Positions 1 to 61,322 of a stretch of 64,000 nucleotides of DNA are shown here, piece by piece. The DNA comes from Berberis thunbergii. Lineage: Eukaryota; Streptophyta; Magnoliopsida; Ranunculales; Berberidaceae. The translations under genes were made by a program, and so were the position numbers. Position 1 is the first letter of the stretch; each line of letters starts with the position of its first letter. The DNA is taken from contig QNQO01000533.1 in assembly GCA_003290165.1 (NCBI GenBank), forward strand, positions 186,001 through 250,000. Direction: 5' to 3'. The notes beneath the pieces are model-generated. The model ran no database searches and was not told where the DNA came from. It saw nothing but the letters and a program-made list of their open reading frames with translations.

Positions 1-452
1 TTTTTTTTTTTTTTGCTATCAAATGACTTTTGATTACATCTTATGGATAAGTAAAATTCATACTAAATAAGGGTCGACAAATTAATTAGGTTCATAGTGA
101 TTAAATATGAATTAAGGTTTATTTGGGTGCAAATAAGATGGAACATGTAAACAAATTGTTACCAACATAGTAAAGATATGCTATTAAACAATATCACTTG
201 ACAGAAGTGCTAAACATATCCAAACTCAACTTTAAACCAGATACCACTAGATTAAACAATATATCACTTGAAATAAGTACATACTTTTAGGCAAGTCTCG
301 TACTTATACTCATGTCAAATTGTCGAAGACATACTGGCATACATACATAATTAACACATATTTTAGCAAGTGCTTAATTCATAGTGCGCAAACGTAGCAA
401 GCGCTGCTCCACCCATTATTATTTGACTTTTCAAGCTCCAAGATTTGCAGTT

Positions 453-1283
453 TCAGTGTGACATTTTTATTTGTAATTCTTTCTCATGGTCCATGGCCAC
501 GCACACATGAAGGGTACTGCATATATCAATTGTTTCAAGAAGTTTTGCCAAGTCTGATAGGATCTTTGACACATACTTGTTCGCTAACTCCTTACACTGC
601 TTAAACAATGCAACATGAAGTACTAGTTAAATTTCCGAAAATTTACACAAAGAAGAAGATTTATGGTGAAGTTTATGTTCTCACCTCTTTCTCAATTTCT
701 TCAAAGATGCTGCAAGTATTCAAAAGCACATTGATGATCCCAAGCTGAAGGATAGTTACAATGCAGTAAGTTCAATTGTTCAGGCACATAGAGTTGGAAT
801 GGCAATGAGTTCAATTGAGGTTTTTCATTTATATCGGCCAGGTTATGAGGTTTGCTTCATTCAAACTTTACAGAATAATCAAGTTTAGGTGCAAATGGGC
901 TTAAATCGAGGGTGAATTATTTATTAAATTGCTCTTTAAAGTAAAAACAATGCAACTAGTATTACCTGCACATCGCAATTATTCAAAGTAGCCAGAATTA
1001 CTTTTACTGCATGATCACACAATGAACATATATCCTCATTAGAAGCCAATATGTTGGCATGACCTCCACAGAGATTCACCTTATTGCAAAACTCACGAGG
1101 CTGCACGGTGTTCATCGCTTCAAAGAAAATCTGGCTGTAATGGTCTACAATTTTGTTGCACTACATAGACCATTAAAAAAAGTGTCATGAGATAAAAAAT
1201 AACAATCGAAAGAAAGTGTACTTGAAGTGCTTTAGAAACAAAATGTTTGACAATAGGTGTATGATCCCTTGACATAAATTACC
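453..1283 (-). pseudogene. Saposin-B domain protein fragment (C-terminal exons)
   Basis: Exon 1160-966 encodes CNKIVDHYSQIFFEAMN, then EFCNKVNLCGG and ICSLCDHAVKVILATLNNCD, the end of one saposin-B domain and the start of the next. Exon 744-685 gives LGIINVLLNTCSIFEEIEKE, and exon 596-453 gives CKELANKYVSKILSDL then ICSTLHVC and a natural-looking stop (TGA at 453-455). The six-cysteine spacing of the last domain is complete, and all three exons join in frame with good splice sites. Saposin-like plant proteins are secreted or vacuolar lipid-interacting proteins. Upstream, a candidate exon ending at 1283 (...NADMNWLFLQ) splices in phase onto CNKIV, but its own family is unknown. No signal peptide exon is seen. 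Confidence 0.82.
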
Positions 1284-1797
1284 TGCAGGAATAACCAATT
1301 CATGTCCGCGTTTGGAGTGTTAAAAAAGAAGACTTCTGACCAGCATGCCCATTGTCTAAGGAGCATCACGACTAATATACAAACATCTAATATACCTGTG
1401 TCAACTCTCCAGCATCAGGCAAGTGCATGTTCAGATGGTTACAACAGTCTTTCGTATGCCGAGTTTGAAAAACTGGAAATTGTGACTCTTGGGCCAATCT
1501 GCCAAACATTCAAAGCAAAACATATAAAGTGATCAATAATGAGCAACAAAAAGATGAAAACAAATTTTAATTGAAACCATGCATGAGACGTCATCAAGAT
1601 TTACCCTTCATCTCAGAGTGTTTTGAGAAAACCACAAAACGGTGCCATAACAATACCAACAAAGCAACTACTGAAATGTGAGATATAGTAATTAAAATAA
1701 TGTTGGTACTCCGAGTATGTAACCTGCATTACATACACTGTAACTACATCGCTTTTATGCGAGGGAGGAGGGGAATAGATGAACAAGAATGACTCAC

Positions 1798-3261
1798 CCA
1801 CAAGACCATATTTCTGTAGGAATGCAGTAGTTGTTGCAGCATCCCAATCGTACCTGAAATAGCATTATTAATGATGTTATAATCAGTAGAACATCAGCAG
1901 ACTGTGTAATGAATTGAGTCTAAGTGGCATAATGCATACTGGTGCTTAGTAGGTTCTTGAGGCTTGGGTTCAATCAGCAAAGTCCCTGAAATAACGTTTA
2001 AGATTGTCAGATAGTCAAGGGAAATGTTAACTAGAAGTTTTGTATCAATGTTCCATCCCATGAATGGAGATATACCTTAAGAGTCCATGTGTGGGTGTAT
2101 GTGCTAAGAAAGTCACAACTCAAACAAAAGATTACCATTGAATCCAATCTTTTTCTTATAGGCCACAGTAGCTTGAAGAAAACTTGCCTTCAAAAGAAAA
2201 AAATAAAAATTTTAAACATTTTAGTTAATAAGCATTTACAAGGTCAATTTGGCATATGTCTCACATAGTAAGAATATACAAGGGAGGACTAACACAGATA
2301 AGTAGGACACAATATTTCTAGTACAAAACTAAAAGGATGAGATCAAAAAGCTGTGAAATATGCTAACAACAACCTAGGAAATGCCAAAGGGGCTGTGGTC
2401 GATTGGTTAAGGCGCTGTGGACTTGTTCCACAGATCCTTGCTTCGAGACCCACTGGAGGCATCTTTATTTCGGGGTGGTGTTTGACCCGTAGGTCACATC
2501 TCGGGACTAGGTTACGGATCCTAGCTATAAAACCGGCTTGCCTTTCAAAAAAAAAAAAAAAACAACCTAGGAAATAATTTGAAAAATGTTTTTGATATGA
2601 TTTCCAACCACTAAATTTGATTATAACACAAAGCAATACCCGTCCAACCATTTTTCTAAAACCATCTGTAGCTGCTAAAAAGCAGTAACAGCTACTTGTT
2701 GTTCATCATTTTCTGGGCTTGAAAATGCAGTTTCAACATATAGCCAAGCTTTACAACTAACCACTCAAATGTATTTTCCGAGTTTACATTAATCTTATCC
2801 AAATAAAACCAAAGACTGTAAACTGTATTCAAAATAATTTTTTTTTAACAAAAAAATAAAAAAAAAACAGCAAGAAAGGAAAATGTAGATTATACCAAAT
2901 GGTCCAGCTCTCTTTTCATGTCTGTATTCAAGAGAGTTTGGTAACCTTCCCGACCACCCCAAAATACGTAGTTTTCTCCTCCAAGGTAATGTGTGACCTA
3001 TAGAGATTAAACATAATAAGCACGGTGTATGCTAAAGTTTCAAGTCAGCTACACATGTTATATAAATACCAAGAGTTAGCTCCATAGCTTTCTTGACTTG
3101 AGTTGCAGCATATGCATATACACTTACTTCTGAGCTGCAAAACACATTTCCATAAGAGAAAAAAAAAAATAATAATGATATATATATTAAAAAAACATAA
3201 AAGGATTCACAAAACCGTTACCTAGTAGCAGCTCCATGCATGTAATATTTATCGGCATTAA
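1798..3261 (-). pseudogene. Xylose isomerase gene fragment (six exons)
   Basis: Six exons in order match the central part of plant xylose isomerase (interconverts xylose and xylulose): 3261-3222 (KYYMHGAATS), 3134-3070 (SEVSVYAYAATQVKKAME), 2997-2896 ([19 protein letters not shown]), 2187-2136 (YKKKIGFNG), 1985-1940 (LLIEPKPQEPTKHQ) and 1853-1798 (YDWDAATTTAFLQKYGLVG). The conserved metal-site motif EPKPQEP is intact. Most junctions are good GT-AG pairs that keep frame, but the 3070 donor to 2997 acceptor join is out of frame. Both the N-terminal His/Asp region and the C-terminal metal-binding half are missing. Introns are retained, so this was copied from genomic DNA. A SINE lies in the intron 2188-2895. 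Confidence 0.88.
2368..2575 (+). mobile_element. tRNA-derived SINE with perfect 15-bp target duplication
   Basis: The body (2383-2560) starts with a tRNA-like head holding box A (TGGTCGATTGGTTAAGG, 2396-2412) and box B (GCTTCGAGACC, 2440-2450), then an unrelated body and a run of 15 A. It is flanked by perfect direct repeats AACAACCTAGGAAAT at 2368-2382 and 2561-2575. Its 3' end, GGCTTGCCTTTCAAAA, resembles the 3' end of the LINE at 30412-31704 (AGCTTGCTTTTCAAAA), as expected if that LINE family supplies its reverse transcriptase. It inserted in a xylose isomerase intron of element A. Internal box A/B would drive RNA polymerase III transcription. Confidence 0.93.
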
Positions 3262-3384
3262 CTATGTAAACAACTTGCCAGATAAGATAGATTTGTAACC
3301 AGCAGAGAAAACCAGAGAAAAGTTGATATCTACTATTTAGACAGAATTAAAGTATTCACATGCAAAATTTAAAGGATAATTAGT

Positions 3385-3748
3385 ATAGGTCATCCTGGTG
3401 ATATACCTGCTGGAGCTCTTTGGATTTTTGAATCAATTTATGAAAAGAATGCGTCAGACAGTCCATATCGATGTCTAGACACTGAGGTTAAATGCCAGAG
3501 ATGTTCTTCTAGTCAGGAGGTTAAACTCATACAGATTTGCCAACACACTGGTCCGGAGAAATTTGGGTTTGACCTGCTTCACATGTTCCATGCTCTAAAA
3601 CAACACTTACATGTGGGGGTTTCTTACCAGGAAACAGGAATGCATCTCTGCCTAGAACGCAGATCTGTTAGATGTTTATACAATCTTCTCGAGTGTGGTA
3701 GTGTTTTCGATTATTTTAATCCGATGTGTCAAGTTGCAGTATGGTAAC
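3385..3748 (+). pseudogene. Unidentified coding block, antisense to the rest of element A
   Basis: An open frame of about 120 codons, ending in TAA at 3746-3748, encodes a normal-looking protein: GDIPAGALWIFESIYEK, then a Cys-rich part (CLDTEVKCQRCSSS) and KFGFDLLHMFHALKQHLHVG, ending NPMCQVAVW. Composition is not low-complexity and the opposite strand is not open, so I believe it is real coding DNA. There is no start codon in the open block and I do not recognise the family. It is the only captured block in A that reads rightward; it lies upstream of the xylose isomerase exons in the minus-sense direction. Confidence 0.5.
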
Positions 3749-4179
3749 ATCTCAAGATCACTAATAAGGTGTTTTTGTCATTAGGATGTCAAATACACGT
3801 ACCATGTCCTTGTAGGATGATAAGAGATTGCTTCGGTAAAGCTCCTGAAATGAAGCAATTAAACAATGTAAGACAGCCAAAAATATGAAGAAACAAATTT
3901 ATAAAGCAATTTCCATACACAAGCTCACATGCATTTTATTCCAGATTTGGGATGTTTGATGACTGCAACAGTCTGAGCTGTGATGAGACTAAAAAGCTTG
4001 AAATGAAGCATCCATGTTTTTCCAGAATGACAAGTATAGATTTCAAGTGATATAGACAGATAATTGAGTTAAATTATTACAAGAACCGACACAAAATACC
4101 TAAAAGCATGAAGCATCACCATAAATATTATGAAAATCCAAGGAAAATGACCAAAGACAACAAACAACATGTTATAACT

Positions 4180-4630
4180 GCCTAATTTGAATAATAACAA
4201 ACCTGAAACACAAAAAATGGCTCCATGCAGTGCTCTCAGCCATAGAACACGCAGCACACGCGCGTTTCTGCGACCCGAGTGTACCCCGGATTGCCCAAAA
4301 CAAATGCTCCAACCAACGCTGCGACAGACAGCAAGCGTCCCAGCAGCAGCAAAACCAGCATCAGCAGCAACTCAGCGTAGCAGCAGCAGCAGCAGCAGCA
4401 ACTCGCAACAGCATCAGCAACGCAGCAGCAACATCAGCAACAGCAACGCAGCGCAGAACAGCATCAGCAACGCAGCGCAGCAGCAACTCGCAACAGCAAC
4501 AGCAACGCAGCAGCAACATCAGCAACGCAGCAGCCTCTGCGCCTGCGCCTGCGCCTTGCACCTTCCAGCCATCGCTGCCCTGTTTCTGAACAGAAACAGA
4601 GCAAAACAACTCTGTCCCAAGCCAAGACAG
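4180..4630 (-). repeat. GC-rich CTG/CAG trinucleotide-type island in element A
   Basis: Imperfect runs of CAGCAGCAA and CAACGCAGC units on the plus strand (CTG/GCTGCGTTG on the element's sense strand), sharply different from the AT-rich surroundings. It can be translated into Gln/Ser/Ala-rich frames on both strands, which is an artefact of the repeat. A comparable island occurs in the sense strand of element D (58838-59160), also between captured exons. Confidence 0.75.
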
Positions 4631-4889
4631 CACCTTGCCAGGACTCTTTGCCATTATGCTCCACTTGCAAAACACAATTCGACCTACAGAATTCAATATT
4701 TTCTCAAATTATAAAAAATATACAACATTTTCCTAATAATTGTATTAATATAAGCAACTCCGAATTGCTTTTTTCTTGGGTTTTGACAATCCTAAATTGG
4801 AGAGGAAGGGTTGGAACTGCAACAATTGTGAGAGGTCAGGTAAGAATACCTCTATTCAATCCAGCTGTTAAAAAGATTATCACTGCCTT

Positions 4890-5016
4890 GGAATCTCAAT
4901 ATATTTTAAATCTATAGGATCACAGATTCACAGTTAAACTACAACTTGTCAAGCTTGGAATCTCAATATATTTTCAATCTATAGGATCACAGTTAAACTA
5001 CAATTTGTCAAGCTTA
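4890..5016. repeat. Tandem duplication of about 65 bp
   Basis: The unit beginning TTGGAATCTCAATATATTTT and ending TTGTCAAGCTT occurs twice head to tail with few differences; the first copy has an extra ATTCACAG. It lies in noncoding DNA of element A. Confidence 0.8.
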
Positions 5017-5428
5017 CCATGTACCAACTTTCAAACAATTATAAATAAAATATGCATAGAAAATGCATCCGTATGCAAAATGGATTAGTTTATGATGCAC
5101 CCAACAGATATAAGGTGCATAAGAATATCATACCAAATTGTCACTAGAGCAAAATGGCCTTCCCTTATCATAAATTCAGAAAACTTTAAAAAATAAACTG
5201 TAAAGGAAACCTAAAGGAACCTGAAACTCAATTTTACAAGCTTAAAGTCTAGGCTTGTTCCCTTCAAGTTTGGTTTCTGACTTGGTTAGAACAATATATA
5301 GAACTTGGCAAAAAAATATCAGATTAGCCAAGACTAACATCAAGTTGCATATAGCAACTCATTTAGTACTTTTAATATGAGAAACAAAGTGACTGTGTTT
5401 TACATTTTTTTTATATATTGATACTTAC

Positions 5429-6192
5429 TATATTTGTCTCTACGGAATCTGTATCTACTTTTAGCCCTTTGATTTTGTTCACTCCATCTGTAAAAGAAAA
5501 GGAAAAAAATACATTTTTCAGTTGCAAAACATAAGTGATGCTGAAATTGGAGGATATGTAAAGGAAATTTACATTCCATAGCAAAAGCGATACCTGAAAA
5601 TGGAACTTATGATAAGAACTGGCACTATGTAACTGATGAAACAGAAAATACCTGCTTCCTGATGATGTTAAGGCAGAATGGGTGGGCGATGGGACTTTGA
5701 TCTGGAGGAGTCGAGCAGGCTCCTTATCAGACAAGGGTCCTTGAGAACTTGACTTGGTTCTACTAGTTTCTTCACTACTAATATCTGGGTTTAAGAAGAA
5801 GTCAATGGTCTTGCGGAGTGTCGGATTAGGCAGAAGATCATCTGTGAGTACATTTGTCGCTCCACAAGTGCACATTAGATCTTTTGAGACAATGTAGTTC
5901 CTGATACCTGGTTACAATTTTAAAAATGAAAGTGAGTTCAGCATCCTCTTTCAAACAAATTTAGAATCCAAAATATATAATATGAAACGACAATTGCACA
6001 AAGGACGGGAAAAGTAAATTAACACCAAAGAAAATATGAGAGGGCCTATAATAGGAATAATCCACGTGAAAAATAGTGACAAAAGAATAATGTAGAGAAG
6101 TAGCTTCTAAACTAACAACTTACCGGGTACTTTGCATCTTCGACAAATGTAGTCTGGTGGAGGTTTCTTTGGCTCCAAAATGGTGCACCAAT
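5429..6192 (-). pseudogene. PQT3-like E3 ubiquitin ligase fragment (zinc knuckle joined to RING end)
   Basis: The exon at 6192-6124 encodes EPKKPPPDYICRRCKVPG, the start of the CCHC zinc knuckle of plant RBBP6/PQT3-like DWNN-domain ubiquitin ligases. It ends in a GTAAGT donor. The next exon, 5907-5652, starts IRNYIVSKDLMCTCGATNV and continues through DDLLPNPTLRKTI, the end of the RING/U-box of the same family. The two exons join in frame (G plus GT), but the second half of the knuckle and most of the RING are missing between them. A third in-frame candidate exon, 5487-5429, encodes a basic WSEQNQRAKSRYRFRRDKY segment I cannot place. Ligase activity is not expected because RING zinc ligands are lost. 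Confidence 0.7.
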
Positions 6193-6199
6193 CTTAAAA

Positions 6200-7700
6200 A
6201 CCAAAATTAAATCTCATATTAGAATTCAACAGATGACAAGCTGAAAGGCGTAAAAATGAAATACAAACAAGTACACTTCGGTAAAAAATGCAGTGGACAA
6301 CATTTTATTGATTGTCTGAATAACACCACTCTGCCACAATATCAAAGAGAAAATAAAGTTAATCAAATGCATGAGCACAAGCAAGTCAATGAACACAAGT
6401 GTTGCATAAAACTGGAGAAAACTTCTACTCGTGTAATGTGTTACGCATCGTGTCCTTTTGTTGGATTTTCAATTCTTTGTCATTGTATGGTAGCCTAGAT
6501 CAACCTATCTTGTTTCCTATTTTTCGTTTCTTGATGAGTTAATTTTATTGATTAGAATAAAAGCACCCTAGGCTTCATTTTTTATAATGTTTGGTATAAA
6601 AAGCACCCCGATTTTATTGATTAAAATAAAAGCACCCCAATTTTAATGTTTGGTATCATTTGCAAAATTTGGTTATTGTATTTATTTAGCAAACCTCTCA
6701 CTTTAGCACCCCAATGCACTATTTCAACTTTCAATGTCACCACCGCTAACTAACATATATTTACAACTACCACTTCAACTCTACGACTACACCACCGCTA
6801 GCGCCATGCATAAACCATCACCACCGCTAGCGCCATGCCACAACCAACAACACCACAACCACCATAGCATAACCAACATTGACACCTTCACAACCACCCC
6901 ACCACTGCTACAACCACCGTATCATAATCATCACAATCACCAACACCATGTACATAACCAAATATTAGTCGAAAGTTGCATTGGTTTTGTTAATTACTAT
7001 CGATCAACCATAAAGAAATGCATCATAAACTATTGCAATTGTGTTAATTTGCAAAATACATTATTATACAACGCACCAAACAAAGCCCTACTACATATTT
7101 ATACTGCAAATTTTTCTTTTACTGATCGACAATCACCAAAAGTGTATGCATTTATACCCATCAAATTCAAGTGTCTAATTTAATGTTTTTATGTTGGTTC
7201 TGCTCCATAGCCGCAAAGACCAACAACTTGCATATCATCATTACTCATCAGAAAAATTGTAAACTCTGCACAAAAGCGATATAGAGATGAATCCCAACTG
7301 ATTAATCAAAGAACTTCCACAAATCAAGCAAGGGTTCACAAAAGGGAAATCATTGTTTTTAATCCGAAAAATAAAGGAGAGGCGGGCAATACATGTGAGA
7401 AACTCCCACTGTGAAGAAGAATAAATAGTGCATAATGATTGGACTTACGTATTCATATGAAAAAGGCATGATGATTAAACAACCCCAATTAGTCCCAAAC
7501 ACCATAAGATGGCCTTAATCTCCCGATATATTTGAGATATATCTTTGTAAGAGTCAAAATGAGCAAAAAAATGTATGCTTAAAGCAAGAAGCAAAGCAAC
7601 GACAATTGCTTCACTTTGGCCAAAACGAAAAACAAAAAAAACCAAAACCAAAACAAAAAATGCCTTGAATACCTTGGTAAGATTGTAAGAATTAGTACAC
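6200..7700. other. No gene recognised; low-complexity AT-rich DNA inside element A
   Basis: Contains a CCA/ACC-rich stretch (about 6730-6960) that translates as a His/Pro/Thr-rich peptide of low complexity, and A-rich runs near 7600-7660. Neither resembles a known family, and I do not call a gene here. Confidence 0.4.
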
Positions 7701-7719
7701 CCCTGGCATGCCATTCCTT

Positions 7720-8025
7720 CCTAATAGTACCCAAAGCATCATAGAGGACAGCCTCTCCCACACCATGCCCTTTAGAAGACAAAACCTATTACTCCACTTT
7801 AGCCAATGATGGAAAGCAATCGAGCAAAGGGATACCAAACCCACTAACCAGCTTCGACCAAACCTTAGTAACAACACAACATTCAAAGGATAGATGTCAA
7901 ATTGATTACACATGGGAAAAGCGCAAAACACAGCGACTGGGGATAAAAAAACCCTCTCTTGGAAAGGTTGTCAATTGTACGAATTTTACCATGTGTAATA
8001 CACCAAAGCAAGAAATAGAATTTTT
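7720..8025 (-). mobile_element. Degenerate LINE remnant (zinc-binding region downstream of reverse transcriptase)
   Basis: On the minus strand, two overlapping frames together give the plant non-LTR retrotransposon zinc-binding (zf-RVT) signature: a hydrophobic stretch followed by THGKIRTIDNLSKRGF, then a Cys-containing segment and ECCVVTKVWSKLV. Several stops and frame changes interrupt it. It lies in an intron-like stretch of element A between the beta-amylase and PQT3 fragments. No poly(A) tail or target duplication was found. Confidence 0.5.
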
Positions 8026-8259
8026 TTTTTCAAAATATGTAACCTGTGAATATGATTCTGGAGCCCCTATAGAGAAATCCTAATTCTCAAGACAATAATT
8101 CTCCCTAGCCAAAAATTTAACAACCAAAAAAAAAATCTCAAAGTTATGGCCCTTACTTGTAATAACTAATAAAAGAGAGGAGGTACGCCTTCTTTTTAGA
8201 CATAGATTTCAGTACACTTCATTGAAGAATAACCCTAAGAAATTAAAAAAGCTACTTAC

Positions 8260-8331
8260 AGGAAGCATCACATAGACAGGAAGAAAAGGGGTCCCAGTGA
8301 AATCATTTGCATTTTCCCTAGGCTGAATATC
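8260..8331 (-). pseudogene. Beta-amylase exon fragment
   Basis: A 24-codon open exon bounded by an acceptor (CAG before GATATT) and a good donor (GTAAGT). It encodes a peptide ending FTGTPFLPVYVMLP, the conserved start of the glycosyl hydrolase family 14 domain seen in plastid and nuclear beta-amylases (BAM1, BAM8 type). The rest of the enzyme, including both catalytic glutamates, is absent, so no amylase activity can be encoded. It is the first recognisable captured exon downstream of the element A terminus in the sense direction. Confidence 0.6.
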
Positions 8332-8339
8332 CTGCATGA

Positions 8340-9004
8340 GTTGTACCGATATACATTGGAAAATCAAATACCATAAAGGACTTTAGTTTGTAAAGCAACA
8401 GTTAACCAAATAAACACTCTGTAATCAGGAAAGGTATACCTCATTCTTATCGGAAAATCAAAGTTTGAATCTTGCACACTTGAGCTATTTGAATATGAAA
8501 TAATCCGAGTTTCAATGGAAATTGATCTATTTGAATGAAAATTATTCTACATTTGAATTCAAAGAGATAAACTAATACTATTAGATCGAAGTAGCCATAG
8601 CAAAGAAAAAGAAATAGTATAAGATTGAAGGAATACCTGGCGAGAAGAGAGAAACTCAATTTTAACAAACAAATGGTGAGCGAAATATCAAAACAACAAC
8701 TGGATTTGTTATGAACACGAACAAATCAACACCTTATTCTACTAGATTTGCAATAATCAAGTTCAAATCAGTGAAAATTACTGTAAAATGATAAATCAGA
8801 ACAGAAACAGAACCAAAAATGATGAATCAATTAGAAGCTCGAATTCTCCCTCTCTCTTTCCTTCTCCTTCTCTTTCTCCTTCTCTCTTTCCCTCTCCTTG
8901 AAATTTTAGGGTTAGATGCAAAGGGTTGAAAAGGGGGAGATGCAGTGAGAACGCGCGGGAAGAAAAAATTTTTCGCAAAATTTCACCCGCCTGAAATCGA
9001 CCTA
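8340..9004 (-). other. CT/GA-rich leader-like segment between terminus and first captured exon of element A
   Basis: No coding family is recognised. On the plus strand 8840-8900 is a run of CTCT/CTTCT motifs, which on the minus (sense) strand reads as a GA-rich tract. Comparable CT- or GA-biased leaders sit just inside the termini of C (about 39000-39280) and D (about 54110-54340). It could be a promoter or 5' untranslated region, but I see no proof of a promoter. Confidence 0.3.
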
Positions 9005-9249
9005 ATTCTCCACACCTTCACGTGCAACGCACGTGCACGTTTGCAACGGTTTTAAGCCGTGGGTCACTATAGTCACGGTTTTTAGCCGTGGCAAATACAC
9101 CAACGGTTTAGAACCGTGGCCAAGCCTTTTTTTAGCCACGGTTTTAAGCCGTTGGGCACTATAGCCACGGTTTTTAGCCGTGGCAAACACACCAACGGCT
9201 TAGAACCGTGGCCACCTCTGTGTAGCTAATCAGGTGTTTTGGTGTAGTG
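9005..9249 (-). repeat. CACTA terminal and subterminal repeats of element A
   Basis: Alternating direct and inverted copies of an about 14-base unit (ACGGTTTTAAGCCGT, ACGGTTTAGAACCGT and variants, usually extended to GCCACGG...CCGTGGC) fill 9040-9215 and can each fold into a hairpin. The segment ends in TTTTGGTGTAGTG at 9237-9249. The following bases TAG would be one target-site copy, but the other copy is outside the window. The same repeat family bounds element D, so A and D belong to one CACTA subfamily. Such repeats bind the element's TNPA-like protein in the En/Spm system. Confidence 0.85.
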
Positions 9250-10332: not shown

Positions 10333-10635
10333 CACTACAAGAAAACTGTATTTTAGCGACGGTCACCAAAGGTATACAGCGACGGTTATGACTGTCACCA
10401 AATAAAACAGCGACGGTTACAAAATCGCCGCTAATAAAGGCGTCACTAGGTCATTCAGCGACGGTTTTAAGCAACCGCTGGCATAACCGTCGCTAAATAC
10501 TATATAGTGATCTTTATAACCATCGCTAAATACAATTTAGCTACGGTTATAAACCATCGACAAAATTCGATGAACAATCCAACTTTTTGCCTTTTAGCGA
10601 CGATTTGCAACCGCCGCTAAATTCCCTTTGATAAT
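10333..10635 (+). repeat. Left terminal and subterminal repeats of element B
   Basis: The CACTACAAGAAAA end is followed by repeated TAGCGACGGTT and AACCGTCGCTAAA units in both orientations (10360-10625). The matching right set lies at 15683-15833. The core differs from that of A and D (ACGG...CCGT with flanking GCCA/TGGC) and from C (GGCGCTT...AAGCGCC), so B is a separate subfamily. Confidence 0.88.
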
Positions 10636-11238
10636 TCAAATTTTTTTACCATATAAAAATCACATTTTTCAACCTGTAGTGTTTTCTTTTCATTGGGTGC
10701 AGATAATCTATCCAACATATGCACTACAACTTTTAGACTCAAATCAAAAATCAAATATAGACGACACTAAAATAAATTCATATGATACCATCATCATACA
10801 TTAAGAGGAACTTTAATTTCATTTCAAAATCAATATTATAGATGGTCCAGAAGAAAATTACAAATTAAAATTGTTACAAATTGTCAATGCTTACATCTAA
10901 CAACCAAAATCGAAGTTGTACAATGGTTGTCTCAGGGTCGTTGTCTACAGGGCCTCACCGACCTTGAGCTCAAAACAACAATATTACAATCACAACAAAG
11001 CCAACCTGATCTCACTATGTTTCTGTTCCACCTTCCCCGTCTTTGAGGTGCTCTTTAAGTGTATGAACTTTGATTTTCCATTATTCGCAATTCCATGCTG
11101 GATCCATTTCTGGAAAATTGTAGTCCTTAGGTCTCAATGACAACTCGAAATATTACAGCATGTAGAGAACAAGCAAAATTTGGACAAGTGAATATCTTTT
11201 AAGACAGGATTCATAGATACTTAAGCCAAGAAATACAC

Positions 11239-11845: not shown

Positions 11846-12138
11846 CTGTCAAAACAAAATTTAGCCTTTCACTTTAGGGGTATTTGCCTAATCTCTTTAG
11901 GAAATATATTTAAACTTCAAGAATACCAAAGATTGTTCCAACATACATAATAACGTCCTTGAAAAGGGAACTACAACAACTACATCACTTGTGACAAGAA
12001 TGCAGGGTATTGAGATGCTTTCAATAGATTGTACAACGTTTATACCAATGCCAAAAACAACAAAAACAAGATGGTATCAATAAACAAAAATTATCAGAGA
12101 GATGGAAAGCAGAAAATAGACAATCGCATGTCAAGTAC

Positions 12139-15833: not shown

Positions 15834-15888
<55 letters not shown>

Positions 15889-28709: not shown

Positions 28710-28712
28710 ATA

Positions 28713-49274: not shown

Positions 49275-49280
49275 AGTTTT

Positions 49281-51555: not shown

Positions 51556-53632
51556 GAAAGAATATATGTCGGGCTGACGACGTTAAACCAAGCACTCCTA
51601 GGAGGTAGCCTAGCTTCAGTTGTGTCATTATGGTTAGTCTGGATTGATTTTCGAGTTCGTTCTAGTTGCATTTCACTCATACTCGTTAGCTCTGTAACAA
51701 TTTTGACTTACAACTGATACATTTAATTATTTTTTCATTATTTCATTTGTATATCTTTTTGTGTCCTGTATTGTTTTTATCAATTTATTATGATGAGTCC
51801 ACAGTTCTTATGATGTGGAGCGTTCATTGGTGGATGATTTTCTTGAAATTGGTAAAAACATTTCCATGGTAATATCACTCTAACTCTCATCTTTTCTTTT
51901 TCCTGCATTTGTCATGATCATATTTTATAAATTGAGGACAATGTTTGGTTTAGGTTTGGGGGTGAGGTTTATGAGTTTTTTCTGTATTTTTCAAAAATTT
52001 TGAACTAAATGTATTTCACAATTGATTATTGTATTCTACTCAATCTCCATTGAATACATAATTAATTATGATTATGTGAAAATTTGTGGATTTGAAAATG
52101 CATTCAAAATCTAAGTTCATTTCCAATGAAGAGGATGTGCTTTCAAGTATGCCTGAAAATTTTAGGAATGCATGCTTACACTTGTCGCTTTTATATATCA
52201 ATAGGAAAACATATGGTTTGATATTATCTTTAAGTTAAATATATTTCATGATATTTTTCAACTCGACCACTCTTGCACTATAAGCCGAGTTAGCATAACT
52301 TGAAGTTAATCGGTAAGATATTAATTAGAAAACCTTAGAATAATAGTGGAGACTTAACCCTTGTGAGTTTTGAGACATTTTATTTTTCTTGAGGGTTATA
52401 AATAAATTCTTACTTTTCTTGAATCTGCATTATCTCGTTGATGATTCCATTGTTCTTGTTTCTTTTATTGATTGCTTTGAGAATGACGTTAAAATTGAAT
52501 TATTACACTAGAACTTCTTGATTTATTTAGTTGAGATGTCTTAATACCAACTAGAGCTTAAGAAGTGATATAGACAATTTTTTCTTTGAACCGTTCTTTA
52601 GCATTTTAGCCTACCTAATAATAAATATCCGTTTGCAGCCCTTTGACCATTTAAATAAACTTTTTTCTTTGTTAACCCCATCTCCATTACCTACTCCAGT
52701 TAGGGAATAATATCTCATACTATTTTTATCCTTACCCAATGTCTCTGAGAATGTGTATGGTTGATATGTTTTTTGAATTGGCAAATAAAAAGAGCTAAAA
52801 CTAAATATTTCATGAATCCTCGGGACTGAAATGTTTTATTGTGCAGAAGGGGAAGGCATGTAAAAAAAAAAAGATTGATGCTTCGAAAAAAAAAATATGA
52901 AGAATTTTGAAGGAAGAAAAATTAATGGTGTACAACAATGGTTTATTTTTCATAGCCCAACGTGTTTATTAAATGGTGTATCCATTCTCAAAGAATTTTC
53001 TCGTATCATTTTCCATTCTTGTTAGCCAAAATCTTAGCCTCATTACAACCTAATAAAGACCTAATTGATCTTAAGTAAAGGTCTGGCTCATAGAGGTGGA
53101 TATTAAATAGACAAGAACTATGGCGTATGATTCAACATTCTCAAAGTAATTGATATTCCTGTCCATGAGATCATATTCATTTCATTCTTTTAAAAGTTCG
53201 TGTTTCATGATTATTATATGTGAGATATTTTTATTTCCATAATTTATTCTCTTTCACACATATAAACTGAGTGATAACTAACCAATTTATGAGTGATTCA
53301 TTTCTGAGTGACAAGAGAGATTTGTAGTCGAAGCGTACAATTCAAAGGTTATCTAGTCGTATCTTAGCTGAGAAAAACAAAGTTATGTTGATAAGGTCAT
53401 GCAAACACACACACTTCGAGTTAGGAATAATTGATGAAATTTATTTAATCTTTGGATACTATTAAATTGTTGTTAGACGCTTTGATATATTATTCTGACA
53501 TTGTTCGTTGTTTTCGGAAAATTTTGGCAATTAGATGATTACTCTGAGGATAATAGATAGAGTCACTAAGTTACCATGTTTTGGAAATTTATTGAGTCAT
53601 AATGTTTGTGGTTAACATTTTCGGAAACCCTC

Positions 53633-54095
53633 CACTACACCAAAAGGGCCATTTAGCTACGCCGAGCTGCCCACGGTTCTAAACCGTTGGTGCATTTGCC
53701 ACGGCCAAAAACCGTAGCTATAAGTACCAACGGCTTAAAACCGTGGGTACTAAACACCTTGGCCACGGTTTAAAACCGTTGGTATATTTGGCACGGCTAA
53801 ACACCGTGGCTAATATTAGCCACGGCTACAGACCGTGGGAATTATCTGCAACGGCTCCAAACCGTTGCAAAAACAAAATTTAGCAACGGTTATGAACCGT
53901 GGATAGACATAGCAACGGCTTAAAACCGTTGCAACAAAAAAAATTTAGCAACGGTTTTTAGCCGTGGCTAGGCTTAGCAACGGTTTTAAACCGTGGCTAA
54001 TTCTAGCTACGGCTAAAAACCGTTGCAAAAAGAAATTTAGCAACGGTTTGGAGCCGTTGCTAAGCCTAGCCACGGCTAACAACCGTTGCTACATG
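53633..54095 (+). repeat. Left terminal and subterminal repeats of element D
   Basis: At least a dozen units of the type AACGGTTTTAAACCGTGGCTA or ACGGCTAAAAACCGT in both orientations, separated by about 15-25 bases. Same repeat family as element A. Confidence 0.9.
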
Positions 54096-54109
54096 AAAAG
54101 CGAAAAAAA

Positions 54110-54340
54110 ATTGGGGGGCTATTTTTGGCGCTCGACCTTCCCTCCTCGACTTTCATCGACAAATATTTCACAAAATCGACCTGCGCGCTCCTTCTCTCCC
54201 TCGACCTGCTTCCCTCCATCGACCTGCTCCCTCACTCGACTTGACTTCGCCCTGCTCCTTCTCGTTCCCTGCTCCCTCCCTCGACTTCCCTCCTCCCCTC
54301 CTTCCCTGCTCCCTAGGGTTCTCGCATCCTCATCCAATTT
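54110..54340 (+). repeat. CTCGACCT-type low-order tandem repeat, leader-like
   Basis: Irregular repeats of CCTCGACCTGCTCCCT follow the hairpin array and precede the first ORC4 exon. It could act as leader or promoter DNA of element D; no TATA box was confidently placed. Confidence 0.5.
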
Positions 54341-54475
54341 CAGAGGAATTGAAAAGGCACCCTTGGTCTTCTTCTTCTTCTCCTTTTCTATTACTAGGGT
54401 TCTTGCAACTTTGTAGATCTCGGTTGGTCTTCACTAGTTTGTGATATACTAGTTCTATAACACAGCAAACAAAAC

Positions 54476-56170
54476 ATGGGGTAGAAAGAGAAACCCCATC
54501 CGTAGAAGCTCTGATTTGTCTCCAGAAAAGAATCTGCGACCCTTCTTCTTCCATCTTCCCGTTTTTCTCCGATTCACCAGATTCCAATTACAGGTATGTT
54601 CTCTTCTCCCCTATCCAAAATAAAATCCCTAACATTCTCATTCAATCTCATCGTCTACTTCATCTATCACGCTATTTGCTATGAGCTTGTGATGGATTTT
54701 TTTGGTTGAAGAATAAGGTCTTAATGATAAGGGTTGGTTTCTTTTGTCATTTCCCAGCAAGTTGAAGTTCATTATCTCCAATTCAGTCACAGAGGCATGC
54801 AACAACTCTTTATTGCTGCTCGGTCCCCGTGGTTGTGGTCAAAACCAGGTAAAGTCGATTATTTTCCATGTTATTGCAACACTCGTAAGAAACTCATTTA
54901 TAATATGGGGAAAAAAATCTACTAGTCATTCATGCTTATTTATTTATCTATTTTTTTTTAATGATTTCAGGTGTTGGATCTTGTTCTCAATGATTTAAAT
55001 GCTGAATTTGCAGATATGATCTCAGTGGTATGTGCTTGCGTGCGAATAAGAATTTCATGATTTTATTTAGTTTTGCTTTCAAAACATATTTGATTTGGAT
55101 ATTACCATCAATGCCAACTTGGAATGCAAACCCCAATTATGTTCGACTTATGATTTTGAACCCAGATTGATGCATGTTACGAGGTCGTCTATTTTGATGT
55201 CCAGCTTGGGATATTTGACATTGGACTTTTTTTTAGCATATAAGGTGCACTTTTAAAAAATGTTATTCTTCCTTCTTTTACATAAAATAGACGATTCTAC
55301 GAAGGCTTATGTCAATTTAGGGTCTAAACTGAATTATAAGTTAGACGCAATCAAGTTTCATATTCTATGTTGGTAGTTTGGTAGGGTCCAAATTGAAACA
55401 TCCTTTTCTTTTTAATAAAAAAGTTAGTAGTTCTGTGATGGGTATCTCAGCAAGTCCTCTAAATTAAGAAAAACTTACAAAACTTATGTATCTGATTCAG
55501 GTCAGACCGGATGGAATATTACACAGTGACGACAATTGTGCACTCAAGGTCAGTAGTTCACCAATTCTCAGAGTCTGGAATTTGGTTTTGCTCTTTAAAG
55601 CTATCTCTTAGTGCATATTTTGGTCTTTCTTCTCATAAATCCTTCCCTTATAAGATCTTTCACCTTGAATTTGTTTCCATTAACCTGAACATGAATTTTC
55701 CAGGAGATTGCTAAACAACTGTGCTTGGAAAATCAATTATCATTCTCAAAAATGGTACACAACCTTCTCGGATAGTTAGCATACGCTTTAGATCTTAAAG
55801 GGCAAGGATTTCTAACCGTCATACAACTTGGCTTTTGTAGGCTTCAGCTGATGAGAACTCACAGTTCATGATAGCTGTATTAAGGTGGATAGTCGGATTT
55901 GTATTCTTTCATCTTTTATGATTTCATTGCAACTTAAGTTCTGATAGCTTATTTGTTTTTATTTAGTTTTGGTTTTTTGAATTGGGTCTGTTTGCTCTCC
56001 CCCCAGCCCCCCTTTTGTTGTACTTTCTATTTTTCTGTTTTCTTTCAAAGGCTTTCTCGTGGATGGTGTACTTATGTGCATTTACATGCGTCAATTTTTC
56101 TTTTTTATCAGAGAGTATGGTTTAGCTCACAAAACTTTAGTCTTTGTATTGGACGAGTTTGATCTAAGTT
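54476..56170 (+). pseudogene. ORC4: Origin recognition complex subunit 4 (ORC4), first seven exons
   Basis: Exons: 54476-54593 (ICDPSSSIFPFFSDSPDSNY), 54758-54848 (KLKFIISNSVTEACNNSLLL then LGPRGCGQNQ), 54971-55027 (VLDLVLNDLNAEFADMISV), 55501-55548 (VRPDGILHSDDNCALK), 55704-55754 (EIAKQLCLENQLSFSKM), 55841-55884 (ASADENSQFMIAVL) and 56112-about 56170 (EYGLAHKTLVFVLDEFDL). Exons 2-7 join in frame with good splice sites. ORC4 is an AAA+ subunit of the replication-origin complex. The Walker A lysine of GPRGSGK is Gln (GPRGCGQ), while Walker B (FVLDEFD) is intact. The presumed start ATG at 54476 is followed by GGG TAG and then a frameshift. The C-terminal half is missing. This is the longest host fragment here. 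Confidence 0.9.
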
Positions 56171-56877
56171 TTCTCATAAAACTCTAACAGAACTTTCTCA
56201 AATCCTCGTTCAACTAAAATAAAATAACAAAACACAAGTTTTCAACTAAAATAAAATAAATTGACTTGAGAAACGGAGTATATGCAACTTACCTATAGTT
56301 TTAATCTATGGCATTGTTGTCACATAATTTTATGAGGTATCCTAGTCTGGATTCAAAGTATGGAGGGTCTAATCCTTTTCACGTCTGTTGAATTCAAGCT
56401 CTATCTGCATGGCCAATCTATGCCAAAACACAAGTTTTCAAAATTAATTTGGTTCAGAATAATAGAATGAATGTTATTACTTGTTCTGCGGAAAAAAAAG
56501 TGAACGTTGGATTCTTTGCAGGAAATGGAAAATGAGATTCTGGGTCTTGGATTCATTGATGAGTGAGGTATTTTTCTTTGTCAGGTTTTGCATATTCTGA
56601 TCCATGGTTTTTGATTTCATGTATTTTTAAATTGTGCTGCATACTTCTTGTATTGTATTGCTGATGTCGTGTAGTTTATGACAGAAGGGAGAAACAAAGA
56701 GATTTTTTTCAAGTGTCACTGAAATCTGACCACCTCAACATAGGGAAGTTATATAAGGTTTTCGCTCCAAATGGTTCTTCTTGAATGAAAGTCTAGAATG
56801 CGAGAATTGAGAATTTGAGTATTGGGTCTTCCTTATAATCTTGGGAGATCTAAGAAATCAGGTTCTGGTCTATTAGT

Positions 56878-57158
56878 ATGGAAGAGTTTTCAAATTTATT
56901 TGATGGGTGGAGTTGGGAGGAAAACAAATTATTTGAATTGGCTTTGGCAATTGTCGATGAAGACAACCCAAATAGGTGGGAGTTGATTGCTGATATGGTA
57001 GGTGGGAGAAGTGTTGGGGAGGTTGAGAAACACTATGAGATTCTTGTAGAGGATTTACAAGCTATTGAATCTGGTAATATGGACTGCAGCTTTGGAGATC
57101 CCCTGCTTTGTGTATCAGTGGAGTGTGTTCGATCCGCTTGGACTGATGAAGATCAGAG
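56878..57158 (+). pseudogene. DIVARICATA-type MYB transcription factor, first exon
   Basis: An ATG-started open exon of 94 codons encodes WSWEENKLFELALAIVDEDN, PNRWELIADMVGGRSVGEVE and KHYEILVEDLQAIESG, the SANT/MYB I-box of DIV/RADIALIS-like proteins with its tryptophans. It ends SAWTDEDQR at a GTAAGT donor. The second MYB repeat (VASHAQKY type) would start right after. The reading frame is undamaged, so a small RADIALIS-like protein could in principle be made, but the second repeat exon was not captured. Confidence 0.78.
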
Positions 57159-58488
57159 GTAAGTCATTCCCTTAAACACCAACTTGTTGATTTCAATTGT
57201 TTATATGGGCTTGTTTTGTTTTGGTTGGTTTCTAATTATTGATTGAATTTTTACGTTACAACATCTAGTTATGCTGCTGTTTTACAGGGTTTATAAGATG
57301 CATCTATTCATTCTATCTGTATGGACATAATTGCAATCTCAACAAGCAATTAGTCCTTGTAAGGGGGAAGAAAGGGATTGGGTGAAAGGTTATCTCATCA
57401 AAAGGGAGATTGAGGTGTTGAACGGTAATTTGGCACTTTGGGAGACTCAAATGATCAGAATCATTGTTCTTTTGTAGTTCTCCTTAGCCTACTTACTTTA
57501 TGTTTTTGCAAAACAAATTCATGCTTGTACGACCTTTTTGGAAGGTTTTAGGATGTTATTTTGTTGCTATTTCTTTGGTTAAACAACTAAATGTTTTTTT
57601 AAGGATTTTACACAATTTTTGTTAGAATGCACTTTCTATAATCAGTTATCTTATTAGCATAAAAGACTAATCAATTATCTTTGTATTGAAAAGGTTCAAG
57701 AGAAGAAAGTGAAAAAGGTATGTGATATGAACATAGAGTCTTCAGATTCAGCAACGAATGGAAGAATTGCTGGTCCGGATACAACTGCATCTGATCTTGT
57801 ATTCCCCCTGGCGGATTCCCTTCTCTTCATTTACCGCTGATTGGAGTCGCAACTGTGACCATGACCTGGAACGGGACCATGACAGAGAGGTGGATGGAGC
57901 TGATGATCATGATAGAAGAGATCGGGTCAAAGATCAACAAGCAAAGAGTTGATCAAGGTGAGCTTTATTTATTTATTTCATTTAGTTGTTGCTTGGTACT
58001 TTCCATCCTTGAAATCAAAATTTCTTTAATGTTTAGGATTGTAATATTTGCTCAACAGTAGGACTGGCTGAAATGCCTTGGTACCTTGCATTCTGCATTC
58101 TTAGTTACATAATAAATTGTATATTCATATGTAAATTGTACAATGTACTTGAGGGTGTACTCCATGGGAGCTTTGGATGTGCTTTTGATGCTTGCCATTC
58201 TGCACTCTTAGAACTCAGTATCTGTGCCATGTTCTGCAGCTTGCACTATTTTCTGTTTGCCTTCATTGAAACTGGTTTTTCATTCATATCTGGGTCAAAG
58301 CAGTTTTTCATTCATATCTGGGTCAAAGGTTTAATATCTAATGCATGGTTAGATGATAAATAACAACATTGTTATCACATCTAGTCCAAAATCCGTAAAA
58401 ATCCCCTGAAATGAACATATGGATTGTGGAAGGTAATGGTTTGGTCTTTATGTTGGCCAGACTCAACACTTGGCTCCTTTCTTTGCAG

Positions 58489-58712
58489 GTTAGTATGAAC
58501 CTTGACAAGGTGGAACTAGATATGCTTGGCACTTGCAAAAAGATAAGCTATACTCTTGAAACTAGCTTTTTTTTTCTTCTCCATGTTGACCTAACTTCAC
58601 TGCAGAATAGGCCATAACATGCGACAGAATTTGCAGGTAACTATCTCCAAGGATGACAATGTCATTCTTCATGGGGCTGGTGACAAGAAGGACATTGAGG
58701 AAAGATGAGCAG
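58489..58712 (+). pseudogene. Mitochondrial chaperonin CPN60 (HSP60) fragment, two exons
   Basis: Exon 58489-58542 encodes MNLDKVELDMLGTCKK and exon 58637-58712 encodes VTISKDDNVILHGAGDKKDI followed by EER, adjoining apical-domain parts of plant mitochondrial CPN60. The donor of the first exon reads AAG|ATAAGC where GTAAGC is expected, so normal splicing is lost. In the second exon a deletion of about two bases turns ERCEQ into ER plus a TGA stop. Equatorial ATP-binding parts are absent. Confidence 0.85.
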
Positions 58713-58837
58713 GTTTGTACCGTCTTCTCCTACTTGCGATGTTGTATATTTACGGTTTGTCATATGTTGGGTTATGGTTTGGTGTTTAATGGTTCAGTAG
58801 TTGTCTTTCTGTTGGATCAATCTAGTTTTTCAGCTTT

Positions 58838-59160
58838 GTGGCTGCGAGGTTTGGGGATTATGGCAGCTTTCGCAGTCCGGGAAATGGCGATATTCTGCGA
58901 GTCTCTCTGCTGCTCGCAGGGGCAGATGCTGTGTGGTTTAGGCAGAGCTCTCTGCTGATCTGCTGTTGCTGTTCTGCTGATCTGCTGCTGCTGCTGATCC
59001 GCTGTTGCTGTTCTGCTGTTGCTGATGCGCGGTTGCTGCGCTGCGTGTTGATGCGACGGCTGCGGTGCTATTTTCTGCTGCTGCTGATGCGCGGCTTTGT
59101 TGCTGCTGGGATACATTGCAGTTGTTTTGTCGCAGCGTTGACATGCTGAGATGTGGCGTC
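58838..59160 (+). repeat. GC-rich CTG-type island in element D
   Basis: CTGCTGTTGCTGATGCGCGG-like units repeat imperfectly, together with ATCTGCTGTTGCTG. Composition and unit match the island of element A (4180-4630) read in the sense direction. Open frames on both strands are products of the repeat. Normal AT-rich DNA resumes at about 59200. Confidence 0.7.
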
Positions 59161-59866
59161 ATGTGGTTGGCGCGTGTGTTCGCCGGTTGATTTAGTACTT
59201 CCTAACACCTGATTATTTATTTATTCTCTGTTTAGTTTTTCTTCATGGACCATAATCATCTGAGAAAATGCAAGATACTAAGAATGTTATGCTATTTACA
59301 AAAGAAAAATTTAGCTCAATACTTGCAGACAAAGCCCAATTTAACAGAATAATTGACTTAGATTTACTTAACTTACGGCTTCGTGATCAATTCGCTTTTT
59401 CTCAAGACTTCAAAAATGTTAACACTTGAATGTAAAGCATTCAAACTGTCATTTTATTGAACTTGTACTTGGTCTGTAGTTCAATTCACAAGAGGTATGG
59501 CTAAATAATATGACAAGGGTGGGGGACAGTTTTGGTACAAGCATGAGTAATATTTTTACAGTTGAACTCCGAAAGGGTACTTTCTAATGAACTAGGCCAT
59601 CTTTGGTTGTTGAAAACTATTTAGGAACTCTTTTGTAAATCTGTTGGTGAAATGTTGTTGTGTTATGTCAGATTGTCTGATTAACTATTGAAAATACTGA
59701 TTGGTGGCTCATCATATTCAAGCAGTAATAAGAGGATCAAATAGTCAGGTTTTTGCATATAGAAATTTCCCTTTGAACTAGCAACTCCCTTCTTTCAGCC
59801 ATTATCTTCTTAAACCCCCTTTGGTTGTAATTTGGCTGATTCTTATTGGTTATTGATGCTGAACAG

Positions 59867-60019
59867 GCAGACAGCCTTCGCCATATGACCTTGCAGCAGA
59901 TGGCTAAAATCCTTACTACCCGGCAGGCAGCCAGAGGCTTGCTTGCCTTGGGGGACTACTTCCAGCGCCTTCGGACCCTAAGTTCAATCTGGTCTGCTCG
60001 TCCTCGTGAACCAACCTGA
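59867..60019 (+). pseudogene. TGA-class bZIP transcription factor, last exon
   Basis: After a CAG acceptor the exon encodes ADSLRHMTLQQMAKILTTRQ, AARGLLALGDYFQRLRTLSS and IWSARPREPT with a TGA stop. This is the C-terminus of the DOG1 domain of TGA factors (parents have ADNLRQQTLQQMHRILTTRQ). The bZIP region is absent. The frame is intact to the native stop, and the 3' flank reads like untranslated sequence. Confidence 0.88.
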
Positions 60020-60215
60020 TAAAACTCAAAATGTACAAGTTTCACTGTCTTAAACAATAGGAATTATACCTCATCAGCAACGATGATGTTTTGAGCTTAA
60101 AGGAATTCTCTTGCATCTAGAATGCTGCGTAATCTGAGCTGCTGAATATTCTGAAGCCGTCTCTGATGAAGGAGACAGAGTTGTACATATGAATCTTTGT
60201 AGAAGAGGAAAAATC

Positions 60216-60324
60216 ATGGCAGGAGGAGCAGCTCCAGCACCCAAGCAGGATGAGTTGCAGCCGCATCCAGCCAAGGATCAGCTGCCTAACATTGCTTATT
60301 GCATCACCAGTCCACCTCCATGGC
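60216..60324 (+). pseudogene. Nucleobase-ascorbate transporter (NAT), first coding exon
   Basis: From ATG 60216 the exon encodes MAGGAAPAPKQDELQPHPAK and DQLPNIAYCITSPPPW, then the donor C|GTGAGT. This is the characteristic N-terminus of plant NAT proteins (CITSPPPWPEA follows in the parents), plasma-membrane purine/pyrimidine permeases with about 12 membrane segments, none of which is present. The 5' flank 60020-60215 may be its leader. A T-run of about 20 bases follows the donor. Confidence 0.85.
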
Positions 60325-60814
60325 GTGAGTTTTTTTTTTTTTTTTTTTTTTTTGTTGTTGTAACATGGTTAATTGGTTTAGCAGTTAGCTGGAAATGGAT
60401 CTGAATTCCACATCTTCAATTTGAGTTCTCTTTGGGAATTTGACAGTTACCAATCACAGATTTACAGCTCCAATTGTTTGCTTTCTAATTATTAGTCTAT
60501 CTCAGATTGTATTATCTTTCCAATTATTGTTTACTTAAGTGAAACCTAATTGCCTATTTGGATGATCATCTCAATTTGTTGGTCTTCTTCTTTAGTAATT
60601 CTGGTCGTATTAATTCCACTTATTGATTATTCTCAAATGTGCATTTATTCTCAAAGTAAAATTAACACATTAAAAACATAATCTTCTCTTTATTATATGT
60701 TGTTTAACTTCAAAAATACTTCTAAAACAATTTTGACTCAATGACTCAAAGTCATTTGATAGGAAAAAAAAAAAAAATTTAATTAATTAATTAATTAATT
60801 ATTAAAAAAAAAAA

Positions 60815-61322
60815 TTTGCTACGGTTTTAAACCGTGGCTAACTATCACAACGGCTCAAAACCGTGGCTACCTTGCCACGGCTTAAAACCGTGGCTAAAGT
60901 TAGCCACGGTTTAAAACCGTTGCTACTTAATTAGGCACGGTTTAGAACCGTTGCTATTGTCCACACCTTATCACGGCTTCAAACCGTGGCTAATCTTGTC
61001 ACGGCTAAAAACCGTTGCTACCTTCTTAGACACGGTTTAAAACCGTTGCTAATATCTACACCTTGTCACGGCTTAAAACCGTGGCTATTTTTGCCACGGC
61101 TAAAAACCGTTGCTATTCTCCTTGCAACGGTTTAAAACCGTGGCTAAATGCTGAAAATCACCACCCCTACTCAAACATAAAACCGTTGCTAAACATTTTA
61201 GCAACGGTTTATAGCCGTTGCAACAAATTTCGCGACGCCTCTGTAGCCAACGGCTCTTAGCCGTGGCAATGGGTTACGCCCACGGTACAGAACCGTTGCT
61301 AAAGGGGGTTTTTGGTGTAGTG
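60815..61322 (-). repeat. Right terminal and subterminal repeats of element D
   Basis: About 18 hairpin units of the AACGGTTTAAAACCGTGGC type in alternating orientation, preceded by an (AATT)n tract at about 60775-60800 and ending TTTTTGGTGTAGTG. Confidence 0.9.

Follow-up and report, generated by a model that had tools for sequence, protein, structure and literature searches.

Berberis thunbergii CACTA elements that carry fragments of several host genes, with one capture apparently nested in another

A 64,000-nucleotide stretch of the Berberis thunbergii genome (GenBank assembly GCA_003290165.1, contig QNQO01000533.1, positions 186,001 to 250,000 of the forward strand; hereafter the window) contains three complete CACTA transposable elements, called B, C and D, and the right part of a fourth, A. 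Judging from their sequence, A-D are very likely non-autonomous Pack-CACTA elements with several donors each, which would have kept the ends and subterminal repeats that transposition requires while intron-containing fragments of several host genes took the place of the interior, stepwise and at the DNA level. One such step, at least, appears to be nested: in element B a fragment of a RopGEF gene sits inside a collinear fragment of a coatomer beta' gene.

Element ends and captured host gene fragments

The window was scanned for CACTA...TAGTG pairs spaced 2-15 kb apart, having at least 11 of 13 terminal bases matching and identical 3-bp flanks. Four pairs qualified, whereas 200 first-order Markov simulations yielded 0.07 on average and never more than 1. 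These four are B, C, D and a further element, X. The initial annotation had claimed four CACTA elements and given their outer span only (we inferred which stretch each letter denotes; Table 1). The claim stood for B, C and D, including the matching 3-bp duplications ascribed to these three (TAT, ATA and CTC), but A is represented by its right end only and the complete pair X had been missed. The inverted CACTA ends (11-13 of 13 bases) and the 3-bp target site duplications of CACTA (En/Spm) elements are found in B, C, D and X. Arrays of direct and inverted subterminal repeats, another character of this group, are present in A, B, C and D. The repeats are of the CCACGGTT type in both A and D, of the GCGACGG type in B and of the GCGCCGG type, near both ends, in C, which bears out the three subfamilies proposed for A-D; X, judged by eye, looks like a further subterminal family. 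A and D, the only two copies of their family in view, share similar end sequence and carry different donors. Pack-MULEs (gene-capturing Mutator-like elements) have Mutator-type inverted ends and 9-bp duplications, and this identity was ruled out because the ends found here are CACTA with 3-bp duplications.

Frames of the elements were read through, with stop codons written as X, and scanned against Pfam. All six frames were scanned for A, B (10500-15450), element X, D (53900-61000) and C (31600-41300), and the plus strand only for 24453-31600. Peptides assigned to single donors were then searched against Pfam, NCBIfam and PDB, and some open reading frames (ORFs) or frames were searched against proteins.

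At least fifteen recognisable host genes had been claimed for the four elements, with 18 named. Database searches supported 12 of the 18: saposin B, coatomer beta', RopGEF, RecQ, xylose isomerase, kinesin, malic enzyme, SWEET, ORC4, MYB (RADIALIS-like), CPN60 and TGA. Two more, PQT3-like and ERD6-like, were weakly supported, beta-amylase and RBR (retinoblastoma-related) were recognised by eye only, and PES-like and NAT were not recovered. For PES-like, two guessed candidate peptides of element C gave no match, the stretch intended being uncertain, and for NAT no candidate was seen by eye in the elements. One captured piece absent from the earlier list, a WD40 fragment in C, was added. The 12 of 18 named donors and the WD40 piece are the host gene fragments that a Pack-CACTA element carries, and they amount to two to four database-supported donors per element, or up to five if the weak and eye-only donors are counted. 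The NCBIfam scores of xylose isomerase, RecQ and CPN60 fall below the whole-protein cut-offs, as befits fragments.

The donors are several unrelated genes, as first proposed. A single minus-strand frame of B (12100-15100) matched both RopGEF14 (best listed match from Telopea, E 1e-42) and coatomer beta' (best listed from Cinnamomum, E 1.5e-29) among the best 120 of 135 proteins, in a search that scored the 7987 candidates sharing most words. As these two plant proteins are unrelated, the exons are not those of one multi-domain gene. Retention of introns likewise held up. The ORC4 piece of D contains six introns, all GT..AG after four drafted boundaries were shifted by one or two bases, and five of the six are flanked by exons within the database match. 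In the xylose isomerase fragment of A introns 2-4 are GT..AG if exon 4 ends two bases into its CAG codon, and the GT donor after exon 1 was not at the expected place. An intron of the same fragment holds a stretch resembling a short interspersed nuclear element (2341-2577), with a tRNA-like head and an A-rich tail by eye, for which Rfam gave no match; Rfam matches overall numbered 0.

A-D look like multi-donor Pack-CACTA elements because no transposase family was found where they were scanned: the two-strand Pfam scans of A-D, over the intervals given above, returned none at E up to 0.5. Thus, no intact transposase lies within the scanned regions of A-D, although decayed remnants could be missed. 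The transposase for their mobility, which in CACTA elements is of the TnpA/TnpD type, would be supplied from elsewhere. The elements may also be transcribed, with chimeric spliced RNAs as a possible product. The captured pieces are decayed and probably yield no useful proteins, the signs of decay being an in-frame stop in RopGEF, a frame break and stops in coatomer beta', and a frame break (by eye) in ORC4 exon 1.

Several assignments call for comment. The joined RBR peptides of B had no RBR match in Pfam or PDB, nor was there one at E <=0.01 among 322 protein candidates; the RBR peptide did match VapB (E 0.08), which was taken as chance. The remainder of the 5738-6160 fragment in A, beyond its zinc knuckle, was read by eye and is presumably PQT3-like. 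In C, one frame covering 36000-38400 had no PDB match at E 0.01, despite the malic enzyme piece found there by Pfam. The MYB ORF of D was closest to RADIALIS-like proteins (63% identity to that of Nelumbo and 65% to that of Coptis, among 21 proteins), and in Pfam it scored below the cut-off (Myb, E 2.5e-4). A KRBA1 match on the minus strand of D (E 0.06) was dismissed as chance, and a 124-residue plus-strand ORF in A (3373-3744) gave no useful match (best E 1.1). A capture shared by A and D was considered for two GCT-rich stretches (4314-4504 and 58953-59140, respectively) and rejected, the sequence being of low complexity and not found in a masked direct comparison. The two stretches align in the whole-window comparison and run in the same direction with respect to the captured genes; they are probably simple repeats.

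Table 1 Elements and recognised pieces in the window.
Element	Feature	Position	Strand	Evidence and remarks
A	Right part of element	1-9249	minus for recognised captured fragments	CACTA right end at 9249; repeats 9030-9214
A	Beta-amylase-like exon, followed by GT donor	8260-8316	-	By eye; sole PDB match beta-amylase 7upv residues 5-20, E 2.1
A	PQT3-like fragment (zinc knuckle)	5738-6160	-	Pfam zf-CCHC_2 E 7.5e-4, below cut-off
A	Xylose isomerase fragment, five exons	1796-3137	-	TIGR02630 E 4e-53; PDB 1a0d E 9e-41, chain residues 157-256
A	Saposin-B fragment, two exons	501-1160	-	Pfam SapB_2 E 3e-6, 2 stretches, best ~602-501
B	Complete CACTA element	10333-15833		Target duplication TAT; ends 12/13
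B	RBR-like 5' part, ATG ~15414	14670-15414 (extent approximate)	-	By eye only
B	Coatomer beta' fragment, part 1 (residues 637-659)	14405-14473	-	tblastn
B	RopGEF14 fragment (residues 23-230)	13099-14262 (tblastn match 13099-14260)	-	Pfam PRONE best E 1e-18; tblastn first exon 68% identity, E 5e-44
B	CACTA-like string in RopGEF/coatomer part 2 junction	13038-13050	+	10/13 bases as in B ends
B	Coatomer beta' fragment, part 2 (residues 683-816), frame break and stops	12138-12792	-	Pfam TPR_COPA_B E 7e-26; tblastn
B	RecQ helicase exon, AG- and GT-bounded	11239-11319	-	TIGR00614 E 6e-10
X	Complete CACTA element	17378-24452		Target duplication AGA; ends 11/13; no captured host gene recognised
C	Complete CACTA element	28713-41464		Target duplication ATA; ends 12/13
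C	WD40-repeat fragment	40070-40595	-	Pfam WD40 E 3e-6 (peptide), E 0.15 (frame scan); many WD40 proteins in PDB
C	Kinesin motor fragment	38022-38144	-	Pfam Kinesin E 4e-10
C	Malic enzyme fragment	36170-36241	-	Pfam malic E 1.7e-5
C	SWEET sugar transporter fragment, three exons	32633-33196	-	Pfam MtN3_slv E 3e-16
C	ERD6-like sugar transporter fragment	31958-32092	-	Pfam Sugar_tr E 0.0026, below cut-off; PDB best E 0.58
C	LINE (long interspersed nuclear element) fragment, 435 residues open	30284-31591	+	zf-RVT, RVT_3 (RNase H type) domains
D	Complete CACTA element	53633-61322		Target duplication CTC; ends 13/13
D	ORC4 fragment, six introns	54476-56166	+	PDB ORC4 E 6e-10 for exons 2-7; exon 1 with start codon by eye
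D	RADIALIS-like MYB fragment, from start codon	56878-57159	+	Nelumbo RADIALIS-like 3, 63% identity, E 3.5e-31, aligned from residue 1
D	CPN60 fragment, two exons	58495-58705	+	NCBIfam GroEL models, best E 1e-6
D	TGA transcription factor C-terminal fragment, through stop codon	59855-60019	+	PDB TGA3 E 2e-21; TGA7 to last residue 303/303

A second gene within the coatomer piece of element B

By tblastn with plant protein queries (P0103 for coatomer beta' and P0024 for RopGEF14, which give the residue numbers of Table 1), the RopGEF14 piece lies between the two coatomer parts, which are collinear and on the same strand. Twenty-three coatomer residues are missing at this site. The coatomer sequence before the gap ends at a GT donor and the RopGEF piece starts at an AG acceptor, and there is no AG directly ahead of coatomer part 2. 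Given the exon layout of plant coatomer genes, this fits a start of part 2 in mid-exon. On the simplest account, coatomer beta' was captured once, and a later break or gap inside the element, at which the remainder of an intron and the beginning of an exon would have been lost, was repaired with the unrelated RopGEF gene as filler. The nesting favours such internal break-and-fill capture for the RopGEF step only. That two separate coatomer captures came to abut in order by coincidence is less likely.

An internal site is also seen in C, where the WD40 piece, which we take to be BRWD/PHIP-like, sits between two blocks of the right subterminal repeats of that element. On balance, the nesting in B and the WD40 site in C favour break repair with filler over fusion of elements, for these two steps only.

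Several points weigh against the reading of A-D as multi-donor Pack-CACTA elements built in this way. The left end of A falls outside the window, and hence its target duplication cannot be checked. Two of the donors, beta-amylase and RBR, are without database support. For the part of C at 28713-31600 the Pfam scan covered the plus strand alone, and a decayed transposase can go unnoticed in scans of this kind, as the weak transposase-like ORF of element X escaped the frame scan. As the matches are to proteins of other plants, at about 50-71% identity, capture breakpoints cannot be read from them. Finally, the junction of RopGEF with coatomer part 2 holds the CACTA-like string at 13038, whose orientation is that expected at the left end if an inner element enclosed RopGEF.

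This last point bears on the alternative that each element was built up as Pack-CACTA elements, neighbouring or inserted, fused and were then re-mobilised as one unit together with the intervening host DNA. A tandem-insertion model of this kind was reportedly put forward by Catoni et al. in 2019. Fusion is a published route with examples in several superfamilies (PMC8903248 and PMC13317346, in the parts available to us), and the string at 13038 agrees with the ends of B at 10 of 13 bases. The window contains 124 CACTA strings on its two strands, and 17 of these match the ends of B as well as the 13038 string or better, so that about 0.08 such strings would be expected by chance in the 308-base junction. 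However, the string has no convincing partner, the sole candidate across RopGEF matching at 6 of 13 bases with flanks AGT and ACA, and it is not adjoined by B-type repeats: the 12 motifs of this type found in B are all near its ends and none is beside the RopGEF piece. It is possible that the string is the remnant of an inner element end, or that it is there by chance. Moreover, neither RopGEF within collinear coatomer nor WD40 between blocks of subterminal repeats is simply given by end-to-end fusion. We therefore hold fusion to be a tentative, rather doubtful account of the elements as wholes, and a possible one for the pieces other than RopGEF in B and WD40 in C.

Strand of the captured fragments

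Every host fragment recognised in A, B or C has minus-strand orientation, and every one recognised in D has plus-strand orientation (the plus-strand LINE fragment of C was left out of this count of host genes). For the 13 database-supported pieces (two in A, three in B and four each in C and D), the chance of such concordance under random orientation is 2^-9, or about 0.002. The one-strand arrangement is suggestive and not a clean test.

It may be that selection or some mechanism keeps captured fragments one-way, so that an element resembles a single chimeric gene, in many cases with a captured 5' part at its start; antisense pieces would be lost, since pairing of sense and antisense RNA would silence both element and donor. 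Besides the concordance of recognised fragments within each of A-D, such a rule would suit element D, in which the RADIALIS-like piece begins at a start codon and the TGA piece passes through a stop codon. It would also suit the soybean CACTA element Tgm-Express1, in which splicing joins the five fragments as exons in a single transcript, as described in the available part of the report (PMC1947982). The fragments of A and D, furthermore, run away from ends that resemble each other: over 213 bases without gaps, the right end of A agrees with the left end of D at 79% of positions and with its right end at 30%. This contrast shrinks when gaps are allowed, because both ends of D hold the same repeats: the end of A then agrees at 78% of 228 aligned bases with the left end of D (score 297) and almost as well, at 75% of 197, with the right end (score 172). 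The concordance itself is also open to selection by the observer, as seven of the 13 pieces (xylose isomerase, RecQ, WD40, SWEET, ORC4, CPN60 and TGA) were picked by eye from one-strand ORF lists, and the strand-blind Pfam scan by itself gives concordance only within B and within C, for two pieces in each. The position of a 5' part first in A and B, and the ORC4 start, were read by eye. A grapevine CACTA element contains a pentatricopeptide repeat fragment opposite to its transposase (PMC2528002, from the portion of the text available). Opposite-strand ORFs of the elements here (thresholds 36-40 residues; in C, 31600-39300 only) included none that was recognised, a reading by eye and subjective. 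In the portions of the literature available, we recognised no published report on strand concordance of captures in CACTA elements. Given these points, a rule that keeps fragments one-way seems unlikely. Still more speculative, and in our view improbable on present sequence, is the fuller proposal that multi-donor Pack-CACTA elements, rather than being patchworks put together at random, are one-way chimeric transcription units, in which a 5' part would lie near one end and later captures would be added in sense, even inside earlier ones, with antisense-bearing elements silenced or lost.

It is scarcely credible that A-D are instead ordinary host loci or clusters of processed pseudogenes with chance CACTA-like ends: such strings are indeed common in the window, as counted above, but end pairs with duplications are far above chance (4 against 0.07), subterminal repeats adjoin the ends, and the introns present argue against processed pseudogenes.

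Surroundings, precedents and meaning

Element D was inserted inside a long terminal repeat (LTR) retrotransposon (47518-63199; TGATATT...CCATCA ends and 5-bp flanks GCAAC/GCCAC with one mismatch), and hence D inserted later than that element. The two LTRs differ at 189 of 1700 aligned bases (about 11%, K about 0.12). At 1.3e-8 or 7e-9 substitutions per site per year, the retrotransposon insertion would date to about 4.6 or about 8.6 million years ago, respectively, with D younger. A primer-site-like sequence follows the 5' LTR by eye.

In element X, a peptide joined from plus-strand ORFs (21123-21535) weakly resembled the Ptta/En/Spm family (Transposase_24, at E 0.014 and thus below the cut-off), and a Bac_DnaA match (E 0.16) was dismissed as chance. 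Between X and C, the plus strand at 27020-27844 encodes a MULE transposase domain (E 8e-18) with a weak FAR1 match below the cut-off. Outside the named elements, the minus strand at 45057-46518 contains fragments of a plant mobile domain (E 5e-14) and a protein kinase (E 3e-10). At 42635-43139 two inverted arms of 139 bases, 77% complementary and 227 bases apart, possibly form a small foldback element.

The initial annotation called the number of donors, the retention of introns and the occurrence in three subfamilies unusual. Precedents for this kind of capture exist in Tgm-Express1 (PMC1947982) and on wheat chromosome 3B (PMC4290129); these and the reports below are taken as described in those parts of their texts available to us. 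Tgm-Express1, found at the soybean wp allele, packs five unrelated gene fragments with introns into 5.7 kb, and resembles the present elements in holding several unrelated host gene fragments, as exons and GT..AG introns, within one CACTA element (PMC1947982). It differs in its host and donors and in that its chimeric transcripts are proven, whereas those of A-D are a possibility; moreover, the available part of that report describes no capture nested in another (PMC1947982). The Tpn1 elements of Japanese morning glory are likewise non-autonomous CACTA elements that have kept their terminal regions around an interior of host genic sequence (PMC5105172), but they are described as one family, as against the three subterminal families in this window, a comparison made by description only. 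The Pack-CACTA and other Pack-TYPE elements of Arabidopsis, maize and rice are also non-autonomous, with gene fragments within terminal repeats (PMC8903248). However, the Pack-PIF and Pack-Mariner examples given there captured 58-280 bases, whereas the elements here have two to four database-supported donors each and longer pieces. On wheat chromosome 3B there are 140 CACTA capture events involving 145 genes, some of them possibly chimeric by exon shuffling (PMC4290129); the likeness lies in the many captures and the difference in their distribution, about one gene per event there against several donors per element here. Five CACTA elements with gene fragments were reported from a 22-Mb region of maize (PMC2773423), related reports of CACTA captures concern Chenopodium (PMC8978399) and the discussion in a lettuce paper (PMC8195511), and stepwise capture has been described for maize Helitrons (PMC3288121). 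Hence, the Berberis elements belong to an already known gene-capturing kind of CACTA element, to which the nested capture and a possible one-strand rule are the additions.

Transposons that capture genes have been proposed as a source of exon shuffling, and the way in which they acquire the fragments is debated, the two proposals being fusion of neighbouring insertions and filler in break repair. An element in which a piece of one gene continues collinearly on both sides of a second gene helps to tell these two routes apart for that step. If elements were indeed built one-way, the strand of a captured fragment could be predicted from the type of element end, and a one-strand arrangement, should it hold across the genome, would indicate that selection acts by way of transcription or small RNAs. 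Both the nesting and the one-strand arrangement can be counted in existing plant genomes.

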